The notes below the pieces were generated by a model. The model saw only the letters and a program-made list of their open reading frames with translations. It made no database searches and was not told the origin of the DNA. Positions 6,322 through 11,458 of a stretch of DNA of 64,000 nt are shown here, piece after piece. The translations under genes and the position numbers were made by a program. The first letter of the stretch is position 1; each line of letters opens with the position of its first letter. Source of the DNA: Tenacibaculum haliotis (GTDB taxonomy: Bacteria > Bacteroidota > Bacteroidia > Flavobacteriales > Flavobacteriaceae); assembly GCF_025215075.1 (NCBI RefSeq), contig NZ_JAOBTH010000026.1:124001-188000 (forward strand), written 5' to 3'.

Positions 6322-7083
6322 TTAACATAATACATCTAGTTGTGTTACAAATTTATCATCTATATCTTTATAACTATTTGTACAATAAATATGGTCAATT
6401 GTTTCTTTTAATTCATCAAAACCATAATTGAATTGTCCGTGAGTTACATATAAAAACACTTTTGATGCGCCTTGCTCTTTTAAAGCTTTGGCTAAAAACT
6501 TAAATGTTCTACCACCATCAGCTAAATCATCAACAATTAAACATTCTTTGTTTTTTACATCACCTTGAATACTAATTACAGGCGCTCCTTCTACCCTAAC
6601 CTTATTAGAAGGAACTAAATCAGCATTTAATGCTTCTGCAATTTCGTGTGTTGTTTTATAGGCGCCAGCATCAGGACTAACTAATACTGGATTACCTATT
6701 GTTTTATATACTTTTTCAACATATTCAAAATGAGAGATTTTCTCTGAATTATTTATTAACGCTAAAGAAATTGAGCTATGTGGATGTAAAATAAAAACTT
6801 TATCAAATTGCATAGAATTAATAAACTTACTGATGATTTTTAAATCAAAAGATTCTCCTTTATTAAAGCGCCTGTCTGAACGTTGACCTATTAAACAAAA
6901 TATAGTCAGTTTAGCGATAGTAGTTTTGTTTTCAGAATTCTCTGCATCCCAAGCTTCTTTAATAGCACCAGCTCTAAATAAATCTTCATAACTATTACCA
7001 CGAATTTTAATATGAATATCTCCGTCTTTAGTAATCTTTGCAGATACTTGTCCGTCTTTAAATTTCTTTATCTCGTATTTCAT
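6322..7083 (-). CDS. Ribose-phosphate pyrophosphokinase-like protein (short Prs homologue) of the NAD cluster
   Basis: A 253-residue relative of PRPP synthetase, about 60 residues shorter than housekeeping Prs (about 310). The ATP-site motif RSDRR (68-72, matching RQDRR of Prs), the metal-binding histidine region LHPHSS (H100, H102), the flexible-loop Lys/Arg pair (K161, R163 in NKVR, where Prs has DKRR) and the PRPP loop VDDLADGGRT (184-193) are all kept, so it looks active. Prs makes PRPP from ribose-5-phosphate and ATP. Its position after nadV matches bacterial prs-nadV operons and phage NAD-restoring pairs (NARP1), in which the Prs homologue instead pyrophosphorylates ADP-ribose. Which substrate applies here is open. 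It overlaps the preceding HAD-like gene by 26 bases. Confidence 0.8.
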   Translation of the reverse strand: MKYEIKKFKDGQVSAKITKDGDIHIKIRGNSYEDLFRAGAIKEAWDAENSENKTTIAKLTIFCLIGQRSDRRFNKGESFDLKIISKFINSMQFDKVFILHPHSSISLALINNSEKISHFEYVEKVYKTIGNPVLVSPDAGAYKTTHEIAEALNADLVPSNKVRVEGAPVISIQGDVKNKECLIVDDLADGGRTFKFLAKALKEQGASKVFLYVTHGQFNYGFDELKETIDHIYCTNSYKDIDDKFVTQLDVLC

Positions 7084-7417
7084 CTGTCAATCTTTTTAAA
7101 TTATTGTACGATTCTTTTAATCCAGCCCTATCGTCTAATAATATATTACAATAAGGCTTTCTAGTTTTCATTAATGGATTCTCATTAATTAATGAGAAAG
7201 GAATATCACGTTCAATTAAATCTTGCTTTATAACGTCTAATTTTTCTCCTTCATTCCCTGTAAATAATATTAACGTGAATCTATAGGATTTACAGATTCT
7301 TAAAAGCTCTACTATAGGTTCATAATTAATACCTTTTCTATGGTAATCGAAAACTGTATTATCATAATCAAATGCTACAAATAGACTTTTATGAGCTAAA
7401 TAATCTTGCTGTTTAAT
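7058..7417 (-). CDS. Small HAD-like phosphatase, probable ATT start
   Basis: A 119-residue frame that has no ATG, GTG or TTG near its beginning. It opens at an ATT (7417-7415) that shares its first base with the nadV stop codon (TAATT, where TAATG would be the usual stop-start overlap). The translation begins with a short tail and then FVAFDYDNTVFDYH, a HAD motif I (DxDxT, nucleophile and acid Asp); LFTGNEG fits motif II (Thr); a lysine in MKTRKPYC and the pair in ILLDDRAG fit motifs III and IV. So a complete minimal HAD fold without a large cap is present. It sits between nadV and the Prs-like gene and overlaps the latter by 26 bases, a tight operon. Substrate unknown; a nucleotide or sugar phosphate is likely from context. 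If ATT is not used, the gene is silent. Confidence 0.6.
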   Translation of the reverse strand: MKQQDYLAHKSLFVAFDYDNTVFDYHRKGINYEPIVELLRICKSYRFTLILFTGNEGEKLDVIKQDLIERDIPFSLINENPLMKTRKPYCNILLDDRAGLKESYNNLKRLTDEIRDKEI

Positions 7418-8871
7418 TAAATATTAGTATTAATTCTTTCTCTAATCTCTTGTAGAGTAATTGGATTTAAAAATTTACCGTTTTCATAAATTACTTGTAA
7501 CTCACCTTTGTTCTCTTCTTCAGAAGTAACCTGGTCTATTAAAACAAATTCATTATTAACTTTATCTACTTTAATTAAACCTTTTGCAGATTTTTTAATT
7601 CCATCATCTGTAATTGGGTCTTTAAAAATCTCTCTTCGTTCTCCGTTAACTACTACAGAAGTAGCTTTCATTGCAAAACCAAAAGTATCTCTTGTATTAA
7701 ACTGATAAGTGAAAGAACCAATTCCTAAAACTACATTAGTAGAAGCAAAACCTTTATCGTGTAATCGTTGACAAATATTTTCTGCTCTTTCCGTAGTAAT
7801 ACTATCTCCATAAATAGCTCCAATATGGCTATCTAAAATTTTAAAACCTTGTTCGTTTACTGTTCCTCCAAAAATATCCCATAGTAACTCTACTACTCCT
7901 TTATCTTTTGGTGCTTTTCCGCCAAGTGTTTTAGTTTCACCACAAATAATATCTACAGGGTCTCCACTATCTGGACGTATTACTAGCTTACCATCTCTTG
8001 CTAAGACTTCCTCTTTTAATTGTGGTAAATAATCTGTTAATACTTTCCATAAATCCCAAGTATCACTTACTACTGATAAGATCCCACTAGAATAAGTATT
8101 CATTAAAGTTTTAAAAGTACCTATTTCATCATCTTTTGTTCCTGCACACATTACAGAGTGTTCTGTTGCATTCACCGAACCTACTACAAAACCTTCTGCT
8201 TTGTAATATTTTCTCAAACTACTTATTATTGGTAAAGTATCAGAACCTAAAAATACTGCTCCGTGTCCCATTCCTGAAGATATAGCGCTTTGTAAACCTC
8301 CCATACCTCGCATTGAAAAATCGTGCCCTTGAAAATCTATAAAAGCTTCATTTTCTTTATCCGTTTTTAACACCCAATTTTTAAAAATTCTCTTATAACG
8401 TAATGCTATAGAAGCTGATGTCATTGGTTGCCATAACATAGTAGATAAAATAGTTTCTAAAAAGTTAGTTATCCAATAGAATTTTTTATCTGTATTTACT
8501 ACAGTAACCATAGGAACTCTAATTGGTACCTCTACTCCTTCTGGAAGTGACTTCACTTTTATTGGTAAATATTGTAAATCGTGTAACTCTTCATAATGTG
8601 TTACATCATAATCAGTACCTAAATACAAAGACAATTCTTCCTTTAACTCATTACAAACTTTTGCCTTAGGTTTTGAAAAGAAATTATCTTGAAAATAATC
8701 GTGTAACCATTGAAAAACGTATTGTTGTCCAAATGAAACTACTTTATCACAACCCTTTGGAGCATATTTATTACTTCTAGGTGTCCAGTTAGAATAAACT
8801 TCTTCTGTTCCTTTAGGATATTGTTGGTGATGTCCTGTTTTGTAACCGTCAGTTAATAATAATCCGTTCAT
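7417..8871 (-). CDS. nadV: Nicotinamide phosphoribosyltransferase
   Basis: A 484-residue Nampt/NadV. It joins nicotinamide to PRPP to give NMN, a direct salvage route to NAD in the cytoplasm. Residues that match human NAMPT are readable: D184 in QGHDFSMRG (nicotinamide selection, D219 in human), catalytic H238 in ATEHSV (H247), and R299/D301 in VIRPDSGDP (R311/D313). Length matches NadV (about 460-490) rather than nicotinate phosphoribosyltransferase (about 390-440). It lies in a minus-strand cluster with a Prs-like protein that could supply its co-substrate, and downstream of a Nudix/NrtR-type protein that probably controls it. Confidence 0.93.
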   Translation of the reverse strand: MNGLLLTDGYKTGHHQQYPKGTEEVYSNWTPRSNKYAPKGCDKVVSFGQQYVFQWLHDYFQDNFFSKPKAKVCNELKEELSLYLGTDYDVTHYEELHDLQYLPIKVKSLPEGVEVPIRVPMVTVVNTDKKFYWITNFLETILSTMLWQPMTSASIALRYKRIFKNWVLKTDKENEAFIDFQGHDFSMRGMGGLQSAISSGMGHGAVFLGSDTLPIISSLRKYYKAEGFVVGSVNATEHSVMCAGTKDDEIGTFKTLMNTYSSGILSVVSDTWDLWKVLTDYLPQLKEEVLARDGKLVIRPDSGDPVDIICGETKTLGGKAPKDKGVVELLWDIFGGTVNEQGFKILDSHIGAIYGDSITTERAENICQRLHDKGFASTNVVLGIGSFTYQFNTRDTFGFAMKATSVVVNGERREIFKDPITDDGIKKSAKGLIKVDKVNNEFVLIDQVTSEEENKGELQVIYENGKFLNPITLQEIRERINTNI

Positions 8872-8881
8872 AATTTCTTTT

Positions 8882-9303
8882 TTAAAATTTAACTAATGCT
8901 TTATTTATATTATCAAATATTGGTGTGTTATATTTCTCACACAATGTATATACATATTTACTCTTATAAAACTCTTTAGGGCATATAATAATTAATTTAT
9001 TAGAGGCTACGTAAAGACCTAGTTCAACAAGAGATATTGGTGATTTTGAGTCAGAAAGAAAGTTTAATAAAATGATATCTGCTTTTGATAAAGTATCTAA
9101 CTCCCATTGAATATGTAGCTTCATTTCTTTATCACTCAATTTATCGTGATTCCTATTTGTAGGGTCTAAATAATATTACTATCTCCTATTTCTTCAATTA
9201 TTGTTTTTCTTCAGTTACCAAAATATCTTTTATCAATACTTCCTGCTAAGAAAACATAATTTCCTTTCTCTTGTGGTAATTGTTTCTCTGATGTATAAAC
9301 CAA
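8882..9303 (-). pseudogene. Nucleoside 2-deoxyribosyltransferase-like gene, broken by a stop and a frameshift
   Basis: The 3' part is an open frame of 85 codons (ATG at 9139) that reads as the C-terminal half of a nucleoside 2-deoxyribosyltransferase-like (NDT) domain, including SLVELGLYV, where the family keeps its catalytic-type glutamate. The missing N-terminal half lies just upstream in the same strand: VFLAGSIDKRYFGN, then TGA where relatives have Trp (GNW), then RKTIIEEIGDSNII, after which one T appears to be missing from a T-run (ATTATTTAG for ATTATTTTAG) and the frame shifts into DPTNRNHDKLSDKEM. Two independent lesions argue for a real pseudogene. NDT-domain proteins cleave N-glycosidic bonds of nucleosides; a link to nicotinamide nucleosides is inferred only from the neighbours. 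The original start is unclear; TTG at 9303 is a candidate. Confidence 0.75.
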
Positions 9304-9316
9304 AATAATTGTATTT

Positions 9317-9331
9317 GCGTAATTATAACAC
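9317..9331. promoter_or_regulatory. Candidate operator of the NAD cluster
   Basis: GCGTAATTATAACAC resembles, at 11 of 15 positions, the clean palindrome GCGTAATAAATACGC found in front of the Nudix/NrtR gene (10082-10096). It touches the -7 box of the cluster promoter and spans the expected transcription start, a position suited to repression. Confidence 0.4.
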
Positions 9332-9361
9332 AAATATATAATTGATTTAGATTTCGCACAA
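9331..9361 (-). promoter_or_regulatory. Promoter of the NAD-salvage cluster
   Basis: On the minus strand a TTG (9361-9359) and, after 20 bases, TATATTTG (9338-9331) match the Bacteroidota -33/-7 consensus (TTTG, TAnnTTTG). It would start transcription near 9325, ahead of the deoxyribosyltransferase-like pseudogene and nadV. A 10-bp perfect inverted repeat (AACACAAATA 9327-9336, TATTTGTGTT 9365-9374) encloses it. Confidence 0.55.
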
Positions 9362-9401
9362 GTTTATTTGTGTTTTTTTACATAAAACTGATTTTACTTT
9401 A

Positions 9402-10076
9402 CTAAATCTCGAAAAAAATTCCTTCTTTCTTTAATTTGAAATATCTTTGTTTATTGAATTTAAACAAGTTAGCAGGTCTTCCTGAACCTTTATAAACTTT
9501 TTCATCGAGCTCATCTAAAACATTAAGACTTAACATTTTTTTTCTGAAATTGCGTCTATCTATTGATCTTCCTAATAAGGTTGTATATAGTTTTTCTAAA
9601 TCTGAAAAAGGAAACTTAGTGTCTAATAACTCAAAACCAATTGGTTCATATGTTATTTTACCTTGTAATCTGGTAATAGCCATTTTCAAGATTTCTTTGT
9701 GGTCAAACGATAACTTTGGTAGTTCATCAATTTTAAACCATTGTACTGCTTCTGCATCGGTTGATGCAAATATTTTAAAAGCACTAGGTTTAATTAGACC
9801 AAAATAAGCAACAGATACTACTCGACTTCTAGGATCTCTTTTAGGGTTACCAAAAGTATATAGCTGTTCTAAGTAGTTAATTTTAATACCTGTCTCTTCT
9901 TTAAGTTCTCGCTCTACTGCTTCTTCTAAAGATTCATTGTTTAAAACAAAGCCTCCAGGAATTGCCCATTCTCCTTTAAAAGGTTCATATTTTCTTTTAA
10001 TAAGTAGTACAGAAATTGTTTGCTCTTCATAGCCAAAGACTACAGCATCTACAGAAAGTTTAATTGCTTGTTGCAT
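9402..10076 (-). CDS. Nudix hydrolase with C-terminal winged helix, NrtR-type
   Basis: A 224-residue protein: Nudix domain (about 1-145) and a C-terminal winged helix (about 155-224, with RNFRKKMLSLNVLDE...GRPANLFKFN), the layout of NrtR, the Nudix-related regulator of NAD genes. The Nudix box is a full match to Gx5Ex7REUxEExGU (GGFVLNNESLEEAVERELKEETGI, residues 41-64), so unlike many NrtR proteins it may hydrolyse ADP-ribose to AMP and ribose-5-phosphate. NrtR proteins bind ADP-ribose as a signal that releases DNA. The start is the ATG at 10076; the longer frame to 10139 adds a hydrophobic stretch that relatives would not have and contains the promoter. It lies directly upstream of the cluster it could control. 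Confidence 0.85.
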   Translation of the reverse strand: MQQAIKLSVDAVVFGYEEQTISVLLIKRKYEPFKGEWAIPGGFVLNNESLEEAVERELKEETGIKINYLEQLYTFGNPKRDPRSRVVSVAYFGLIKPSAFKIFASTDAEAVQWFKIDELPKLSFDHKEILKMAITRLQGKITYEPIGFELLDTKFPFSDLEKLYTTLLGRSIDRRNFRKKMLSLNVLDELDEKVYKGSGRPANLFKFNKQRYFKLKKEGIFFEI

Positions 10077-10081
10077 TTTAT

Positions 10082-10113
10082 GCGTATTTATTACGCTAAT
10101 ATATGCAAAAATA
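10082..10113 (-). promoter_or_regulatory. Promoter and palindromic operator of the Nudix/NrtR gene
   Basis: TATTTTTG (10113-10106) fits the -7 consensus TAnnTTTG. Between it and the ATG lies GCGTAATAAATACGC (10096-10082), a palindrome with GCGTA / TACGC arms. The place is right for autorepression, and a related sequence lies at the cluster promoter. Confidence 0.45.
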
Positions 10114-10502
10114 ATAATTAGAACTATAATTCCATTCAATACACATTACCACTTCACTCCTATCGTCGCTTCGGACAAAACGTATTCTATTACATTTTTA
10201 AAGAAACATTTGAGAAGAAAAAAATAAAAGTAAGATTGTTTCTGCAAACGGCTTTTACCAAAGCAAAATAAGATAACGCAGAACATTATAGTGCAAATGT
10301 TTTGATTTTTTCAATACACTATTTTCAAGTAAATTCAGATTACATCTCATTGTATTTTCTAGATAATTACCCGTTGGATGATAACCTAGAAATAACTTAT
10401 TATCATTATTATTATTATTAGGCTAGAATTTTATGAGATAAAGTTGTTGTTTTATTTATAGTGAAGCATCAAAAACAGACAATGAAATCATAAATAAGTA
10501 TG

Positions 10503-10846: not shown

Positions 10847-11458
10847 ATGCCTTTTAAAAAATTACATTCCGATATAAAAGAGAAATTAGAATCTCTTGAA
10901 ATAACAACACCTACTCCTTTTCAGAAAGCGAGTATTCCTGTAATAAAAAGCGGTGCTAATATTTATTGTACTGCTCCAGAAGGTAGCGGAAAAACAACCA
11001 CACTAATACTAACTACTTTACAAAAATTAAAATTTGAAGCTGTTGGTAATGCCCCAAGAGCCATTGTTTTAGTAGGAGATAATAAAAAAGCTACTGAACT
11101 TCATAATGCTTTTTTAAAATACACTAGATATCACCCGTTACGTGTATATTTAGGTGATGAAAAATTGCATATTGATGTGTTAAAATCAGAAATATTTGAA
11201 GGTGTTGATGTTCTAATAGCGACTCCTAAAATTGTAAACAAGTTACTTTTGTTAGAAGGTTTAAGTATTTCTCAGTTAAAGATATTTAGTATACATGATG
11301 CTGATTTTTTAGTTAATAATGCTTCATATACTGCTCTTATGTCAATTACTCAGAGTCTTAATAAATGTCAGTTTGTATTATATTCAAAAAAAATGCACCC
11401 GATTCTAAAGCGTTTAGAATCTTATTTTATGCAATATGCCAAGACAATTACTGTTTAA
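10847..11458 (+). CDS. Single-domain DEAD-box helicase-like protein with degenerate motif II
   Basis: A 203-residue protein made only of the first RecA-like domain of a DEAD-box helicase. Q-motif-like PTPFQKASIP (about 22-31), Walker A APEGSGKTT (about 43-51) and the Ib-type ATPKIV are present. Motif II reads IHDAD instead of DEAD, so the glutamate that activates water is lost, and motif III (SAT) reads YSK. The second RecA domain with motifs IV-VI is absent: the sequence after the stop shows no continuation. It may bind nucleotide and RNA without unwinding, or be a relic that still has an open frame. Its frame is clean over the whole length, which argues for retained function. Confidence 0.75.
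   Translation: MPFKKLHSDIKEKLESLEITTPTPFQKASIPVIKSGANIYCTAPEGSGKTTTLILTTLQKLKFEAVGNAPRAIVLVGDNKKATELHNAFLKYTRYHPLRVYLGDEKLHIDVLKSEIFEGVDVLIATPKIVNKLLLLEGLSISQLKIFSIHDADFLVNNASYTALMSITQSLNKCQFVLYSKKMHPILKRLESYFMQYAKTITV

Follow-up and report, generated by a model that had tools for sequence, protein, structure and literature searches.

A probable chromosomal NARP1-type operon of Tenacibaculum haliotis, predicted to rebuild NAD from ADP-ribose and likely induced by it

The operon described here lies in Tenacibaculum haliotis (GCF_025215075.1, contig NZ_JAOBTH010000026.1, positions 124,001-188,000), and all coordinates below refer to this 64-kb stretch of DNA, the window. Five features on the minus strand (6322-10076) are transcribed in the order nrtR, an NDT-like gene, a NadV-like gene, a HAD frame, and a Prs-like gene. 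We consider it probable that they form a chromosomal NARP1-type operon in which nicotinamide adenine dinucleotide (NAD) would be rebuilt from ADP-ribose and nicotinamide, and that the operon is likely ADP-ribose induced. The original prediction, made from the DNA letters, described the five adjacent features, all of which are present, and proposed an NAD repair loop. We agree that a repair loop, for NAD that has been lost as ADP-ribose, is the best reading; the suggested link to phage defense fared less well, as TIR_2 and SIR2_2 have no match in the genome and no other defense search was made.

In PMC12774641, the clamp helix motif GSX-phi-X-phi-X-phi-TRD distinguishes Namat, which prefers ADP-ribose pyrophosphate (ADPR-PP), from Nampt, which uses phosphoribosyl pyrophosphate (PRPP). 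The 484-amino-acid (aa) product of the NadV-like gene (namat-like; 7417-8871, minus strand) has this adenine clamp (SCH clamp) in the form GSFTYQFNTRD and lacks the Nampt motif GMGG(A/G)LLQ, which sets it apart from the NadV of a canonical Prs plus NadV pair. At the aligned clamp site the window protein reads GIGSFTYQFNTRD versus GMGGALLQKVDRD in 7yqo, which we take to be Xcc Nampt. The clamp loop is SNKY, with lysine third and tyrosine fourth as in the published description of Bas63 Namat, and the histidine motif TEHS is retained. Comparison with solved structures gives 531 bits for 9w5x/9w5w and 462 bits for 9ke8 versus 222 bits for the best Nampt, 7yqo. From its letters we take 9w5x/9w5w to be the SPbetaL1 Namat (51.5% identical to the window protein by tblastn) and 9ke8 presumably to be another phage Namat; the database labels both as nicotinamide phosphoribosyltransferase. 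A scan of genome contigs with a Namat alignment returned 438 relatives, the best 80 of which were named (Bacteroidota as far as their titles show), and the SCH clamp is present in all 80. As a control, in an even sample of Bacteroidota genomes (described below) the clamp motif occurs in 19 of 19 other Namat-type proteins and GMGG[AG]LLQK in 10 of 10 NadV-type proteins. We classify the NadV-like protein as a predicted Namat. Because it bears the Namat ADPR-PP clamp, the route would bypass ribose-5-phosphate and PRPP, and the chain first proposed, in which a Nudix enzyme converts ADP-ribose to ribose-5-phosphate for Prs and NadV, has to be replaced. Two loci of relatives (designated L) differ at or beside this gene: a locus of the same genus (L033, 8512-10112, minus strand) has a broken Namat beside NrtR and Adps, with only residues 1-22 and 333-484 aligning, and L034 encodes a 329-aa protein with no Pfam match between Namat and Adps (8894-9883, minus strand).

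The Prs-like gene (adps-like; 6322-7083, minus strand) encodes a protein of 253 aa that contains NKVR, as had been noted, and the motifs PHS, SPDAGAYK, and DDLADGGRT, and that matches the phage family phrog_619 (2.7e-55). A profile search did not find the Prs N-terminal domain PF13793 in this protein, in which it departs from canonical Prs. The single PF13793 match in the host genome is a 313-aa Prs on another contig, the second, full-length prs that the original prediction had proposed to look for. A tree of 45 rows, with the SPbetaL1 Adps taken from OQ921341, separates the 17 housekeeping Prs at 100/100 support on a branch of 4.1. The window protein groups with the 95% identical Adps of T. 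aquimarinum in a bacterial clade of 12 rows, on the phage side that includes the SPbetaL1 Adps; the order within the Adps side is unsure given the long phage branches. All aligned Adps rows have PHS, AHS, or CHS at the position of LHA in E. coli Prs. These features place the Prs-like protein with the Adps type, distinct from housekeeping Prs, in agreement with its proposed kinship to the accessory enzyme of phage NARP1, and its gene shares an operon with the namat-like gene, as expected of NARP1.

The nrtR gene (9402-10076, minus strand) encodes a protein in which a Nudix domain (Pfam NUDIX, 9e-23) is fused to an NrtR winged helix (NrtR_WHD, 5e-23), with both cut-offs passed; it scores 161 bits against the NCBIfam equivalog NF050029, under the cut-off of 400. 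NrtR is found in 70 of the 80 named Namat loci, and it adjoins Adps or lies one gene away in all 13 relatives examined first, a gene order far beyond chance. Downstream of nrtR are two 23-bp palindromes of the form ATTTGYGT-N7-ACRCAAAT (putative operators; no strand assigned), the weaker O1 (9366-9388, 13 of 20 positions) and, 53 bp from it, O2 (9313-9335, 19 of 20 positions). Among the 70 loci with NrtR, 56 have at least two sites that match at 14 or more of 20 positions, 11 have one, and 3 have none; in 55 pairs the sites are a fixed 52, 53, or 54 bp apart. Sites that match at 16 or more positions number 130 in 87 loci, 102 of them near NrtR, compared with a background of 6 in 788 kb of Markov-1 sequence. 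At the start of nrtR lies a possible weak operator (10078-10100, 14 of 20 positions, no strand assigned), a candidate for autoregulation, and palindromes of at least 16/20 occur at this position in L148, L155, L165, and L181. The promoter-like box TATATTTG (9331-9338, minus strand) fits TAnnTTTG, which we take to be the -7 box of Bacteroidota; it begins 3 bp upstream of O2 and extends into it, and the same offset is seen in 21 of 21 rows picked for alignment. This overlap has the geometry expected of a repressor sitting on its promoter.

The M. smegmatis NrtR is likewise a Nudix and winged-helix repressor with a 23-bp 8-N7-8 palindrome, from which ADP-ribose releases it according to PMC6800001; there the ligand is established, here it is predicted. 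The same source describes an altered, inactive Nudix box in that protein, whereas the box of the T. haliotis protein, GFVLNNESLEEAVERELKEETG, is complete. A strict Nudix box is present in 49 of the 71 NrtR hits from the 80 named loci; of nine of the other loci, eight have N in place of the last G with RExxEE retained, and the remaining one (L139) encodes a protein with a full box and a second, dissimilar protein. Whereas the original prediction described a catalytic NrtR at the head of the chain, we regard the protein as foremost a predicted repressor.

Based on these predictions and on the characterized members of each family, we propose a circuit in which ADP-ribose would be both substrate and inducer. 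As ADP-ribose accumulates, it would bind NrtR, which would leave the palindromes and so lift repression, likely turning the operon on. Adps would pyrophosphorylate ADP-ribose to ADPR-PP, and Namat would join ADPR-PP and nicotinamide to yield NAD and pyrophosphate (PPi), two steps in total with neither PRPP nor an adenylyltransferase. Because its Nudix box is complete, NrtR may also hydrolyze its inducer and thereby reset the switch.

The gene neighborhoods of the relatives, counted within flanks that extend at most 10 kb (less at some contig ends), are consistent with such a circuit. In the 80 Namat loci, Adps occurs in 74, KptA and a metallophosphatase in 32 each (both together in 30), NADAR in 25, macro and ARG in 23 each, DUF4291 in 22, and a second type of macro in 12. 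Of eight ADP-ribose-handling families, 52 of the loci have one or more. Domain names were confirmed by Pfam on representatives, the second macro type scoring too low to pass; DUF4291 and the NDT-like family owe their place among the ADP-ribose-handling families to context only. Of 34 loci with KptA or the metallophosphatase (among them the Aquimarina-type loci L188-L212), 30 have both, often adjacent, as if one enzyme processed the product of the other. Seven of the 80 loci encode a family of 137-138 aa within these ADP-ribose islands (L037, 9878-10294; L040, 7575-7988; L044, 8072-8488), the L040 member of which has no Pfam match. The operons of relatives gather enzymes with a predicted part in releasing or processing ADP-ribose (KptA with the metallophosphatase, macro, ARG, PARG, NADAR, NDT-like), which points to a general recycling of ADP-ribose.

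Canonical NadV loci provide the comparison. An even sample of 395 Bacteroidota genomes gave 30 with a match at E<=1e-60, a limit that misses weaker NadV relatives: 20 Namat-type, including the window's own, and 10 NadV-type. ADP-ribose-handling families are present at 18 of the 19 other Namat loci versus 2 of the 10 NadV loci (Fisher one-sided, 8.6e-5), and Adps at 16 of 19 versus 0 of 10 (1.4e-5); both p-values overstate the contrast, given the kinship of the genomes, the origin of the profiles in Namat islands, and the shortness of some NadV loci. NrtR is near both types (14 of 19 and 7 of 10), so it appears common to canonical salvage, while the ADP-ribose enzymes accompany Namat. This contrast between Namat and canonical NadV loci is new here. 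The neighbors of homologs are not random, a condition that the original prediction had set for itself.

Only three of the five genes (NrtR, NadV-like, and Prs-like) are intact, because the HAD frame is without a start codon and the NDT-like gene has a TGA and a frameshift. The HAD and NDT-like genes of the original prediction are present, but in T. haliotis they look to be decaying and non-functional. The small HAD-fold phosphatase frame (7058-7423, minus strand; phrog_1238, 3e-13) overlaps both the NadV-like and the Prs-like frames and so chains namat-like to adps-like on one strand. It has no ATG, GTG, or TTG start codon and is 5'-truncated, about 10-13 N-terminal residues short of nine bacterial relatives that have ATG there. 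The motifs of a C0-type HAD (DxDxT, T/S, K, DD) are kept as DYDNT, FTG, K, and DDR, and the predicted structure of the T. aquimarinum relative has a pLDDT of 94. Of 58 non-redundant viral HAD loci, 42 have NARP1 next to the HAD, and the HAD is present in 9 of the 80 bacterial Namat loci; crAss-like phages have Namat-HAD-Adps, the order of the window, with overlapping frames. This recurrence of a small HAD as a NARP1 neighbor in phages and bacteria is new here: the open-access literature searched, including passages of PMC13064858, contains no link of NARP1 to a HAD or phosphatase, most subscription papers lying outside that search. We predict that HAD is a small phosphatase acting on a by-product of both the PRPP and ADPR-PP routes (pentose-1-phosphate or PPi).

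The NDT-like (Nuc_deoxyri_tr2) relic (8882-9310, minus strand) is spread over two frames, the larger piece of which matches PF15891 (5e-13), the sole such match in the host genome. Although the frame is broken, this piece keeps the motif SPISLVELG, whose glutamate is catalytic in the NDT family. Intact copies occupy the position of the relic in L137 and others; the NDT-like gene directly precedes Namat in 12 of the 80 loci (L137, L140, L141, L144, L145, L146, L149, L161, L162, L164, L185, and L208), and further copies lie within Aquimarina islands. Altogether 34 of the 80 bacterial Namat loci contain NDT-like genes, and 37 of 38 rows retain the motif [SA]PI[ST][LF]xE (L146 is the exception). 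Two viral loci (L115 and L120, possibly related) have an NDT-like gene between Adps and Namat. The recurrence of NDT-like genes beside NARP1 is likewise new here. A precedent for an ADP-ribose-supplying gene at such a position is RyDEP, a cyclic ADP-ribose glycosidase added to a phage NARP1 operon, where it supplies ADP-ribose to Adps and Namat (PMC13232231); however, RyDEP is a RyR-domain protein, and the NDT-like protein belongs to a different family and has a putative role.

The operon appears to have moved as a unit. Blastn finds a match of 94-95% DNA identity in T. aquimarinum over 6340-10103 (no strand assigned) and no other match between the two in the 64 kb at E 1e-10; a Polaribacter isolate matches at 91% and 84%, with one 148-bp match elsewhere in the 64 kb at the same threshold. 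The matches to both end at 6340-6341 and 10103-10114, and the limits originally given for the cluster agree with the end of the T. aquimarinum similarity. The shared DNA stops at the limits of the operon and the surroundings differ; no mobile-element end was found, and the window gave no tRNA. A 203-aa frame nearby (10847-11458, plus strand) resembles by eye the front part only of a DEAD-box helicase.

Several observations weigh against the proposed circuit, some of them shared with the alternative that this is a canonical nicotinamide salvage operon in which a short Prs makes PRPP, NadV makes nicotinamide mononucleotide (NMN), and NrtR regulates. Operons of the prs-nadV-nrtR type are known among NrtR-regulated NAD operons. 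Database names favor this alternative: the NCBI equivalog NF006629, at 544 bits and thus over its cut-off of 405, would make the NadV-like protein a nicotinate phosphoribosyltransferase, and TIGR01251 (ribP_PPkin) matches the Prs-like protein at 101 bits, short of its cut-off of 113. Identity between the Adps of the window and that of SPbetaL1 is only 35% over 222 positions, and the best solved relatives of the window protein are Prs. NrtR alone is no argument for the ADPR-PP route, because it also adjoins canonical NadV (7 of 10 Bacteroidota loci). Namat accepts PRPP too in vitro (PMC12774641), and the namat-like protein may make some NMN from it. A canonical counterpart in L278 (7447-11900) has NrtR, a NadM-like adenylyltransferase-Nudix protein (by eye and Pfam NUDIX), NadV, Prs, and a HAD relative with DxHxT as its first motif. 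However, this sole canonical operon seen has the Nampt motif and a Prs bearing PF13793, whereas the window proteins have the Namat clamp with the structure matches to go with it, no PF13793, and a tree position apart from housekeeping Prs; we therefore regard canonical salvage as unlikely. The remaining points concern the regulation and the neighbors: O1 is weak in the window, 28 of the 80 loci are devoid of all eight families, profiles from Namat-island proteins and NadV loci cut by contig ends may inflate the contrast, and the roles of HAD and NDT-like proteins are derived from genomic context alone. The host genome has no KptA, macro, ARG, TIR_2, or SIR2_2 match, and the only candidate source of ADP-ribose found in it is a single SIR2 protein.

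The lack of a match to these five families in the genome would also suit a decaying operon without present function, in which HAD (truncated) and NDT-like (stop and frameshift) are already broken and the core is to follow, as in the same-genus locus with a broken Namat. We give this slightly less credence than canonical salvage, since Namat, Adps, and NrtR are full length with their motifs, O2 matches at 19 of 20 positions, and HAD is absent in 71 of the 80 relatives without loss of the core. Alternatively, the operon might be a phage counter-defense module from a prophage or satellite that undoes immune NADases for the element and not for the cell. The four longer proteins and HAD match phage families (PHROGs 448, 619, 1238, 1198, and 30579, with 1198 covering much of NrtR), the crAss-like phages share the window's gene order and overlaps, and the DNA shared with other genomes comprises the operon as a unit, set in surroundings that differ. 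However, the listed window neighbors look ordinarily chromosomal by eye from their translations, and the window has no tRNA match; NrtR has a single, weak hit (26 bits) in 80 viral HAD loci, whereas NrtR and operators are kept in 70 of the 80 bacterial loci; and in the rows sampled the bacterial Adps fall into two separate clades. Such an origin seems to us about as improbable as canonical salvage, and we favor a cellular NARP1-type operon.

Compared with the NARP1 operons of SPbetaL1 and Paenibacillus foliorum, the T. haliotis operon has in common Adps and Namat homologs in one operon, the clamp motif, and a chromosomal location for which active copies are known, the P. foliorum NARP1 being active in vitro and in E. 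coli (PMC12774641). It differs in the addition of NrtR and operators, the HAD frame between the genes, and the NDT-like relic, and in that its relatives stand together with ADP-ribose-handling enzymes. NrtR goes unmentioned in the main text of that study, and the open-access literature searched, outside which lie most subscription papers including the original NARP1 paper, did not describe NARP1 and NrtR together. Host systems centered on ARG, with Nudix (NrtR-like) or WYL regulators, share a Nudix repressor proposed as a sensor of ADP-ribose, and there ARG occurs with macro, NADAR, and phosphatases that include calcineurin-like and HAD 5'-nucleotidase proteins (PMC9503650). Those systems are proposed to undo viral ADP-ribosylation and section 3.8 of that source describes no NAD resynthesis, whereas here the core is Adps and Namat and the predicted product is NAD.

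The physiological role of bacterial NARP1 was left for further study, with NAD and ADP-ribose homeostasis suggested, in PMC12774641. In the T. haliotis operon the known ligand of the regulator type is the substrate of the predicted pathway, the putative operators lie on a promoter-like box, and enzymes of relatives are predicted to make that substrate. We tentatively extend this to a proposal that we stop just short of favoring: NARP1 may originally have been a bacterial ADP-ribose recycling circuit, with ADP-ribose as both inducer (via NrtR) and substrate, to which ADP-ribose-releasing enzymes and HAD as a third enzyme belong, and phages may have taken its core against NADase immunity. Recurring as a third gene of NARP1 in bacteria and in phages, the HAD offers a new enzyme to assay. 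The role of bacterial NARP1 becomes directly testable, through induction by ADP-ribose and through the return to NAD of ADP-ribose from RNA repair, de-ADP-ribosylation, and sirtuins; these operons would then recycle ADP-ribose rather than serve solely in virus-host conflict.

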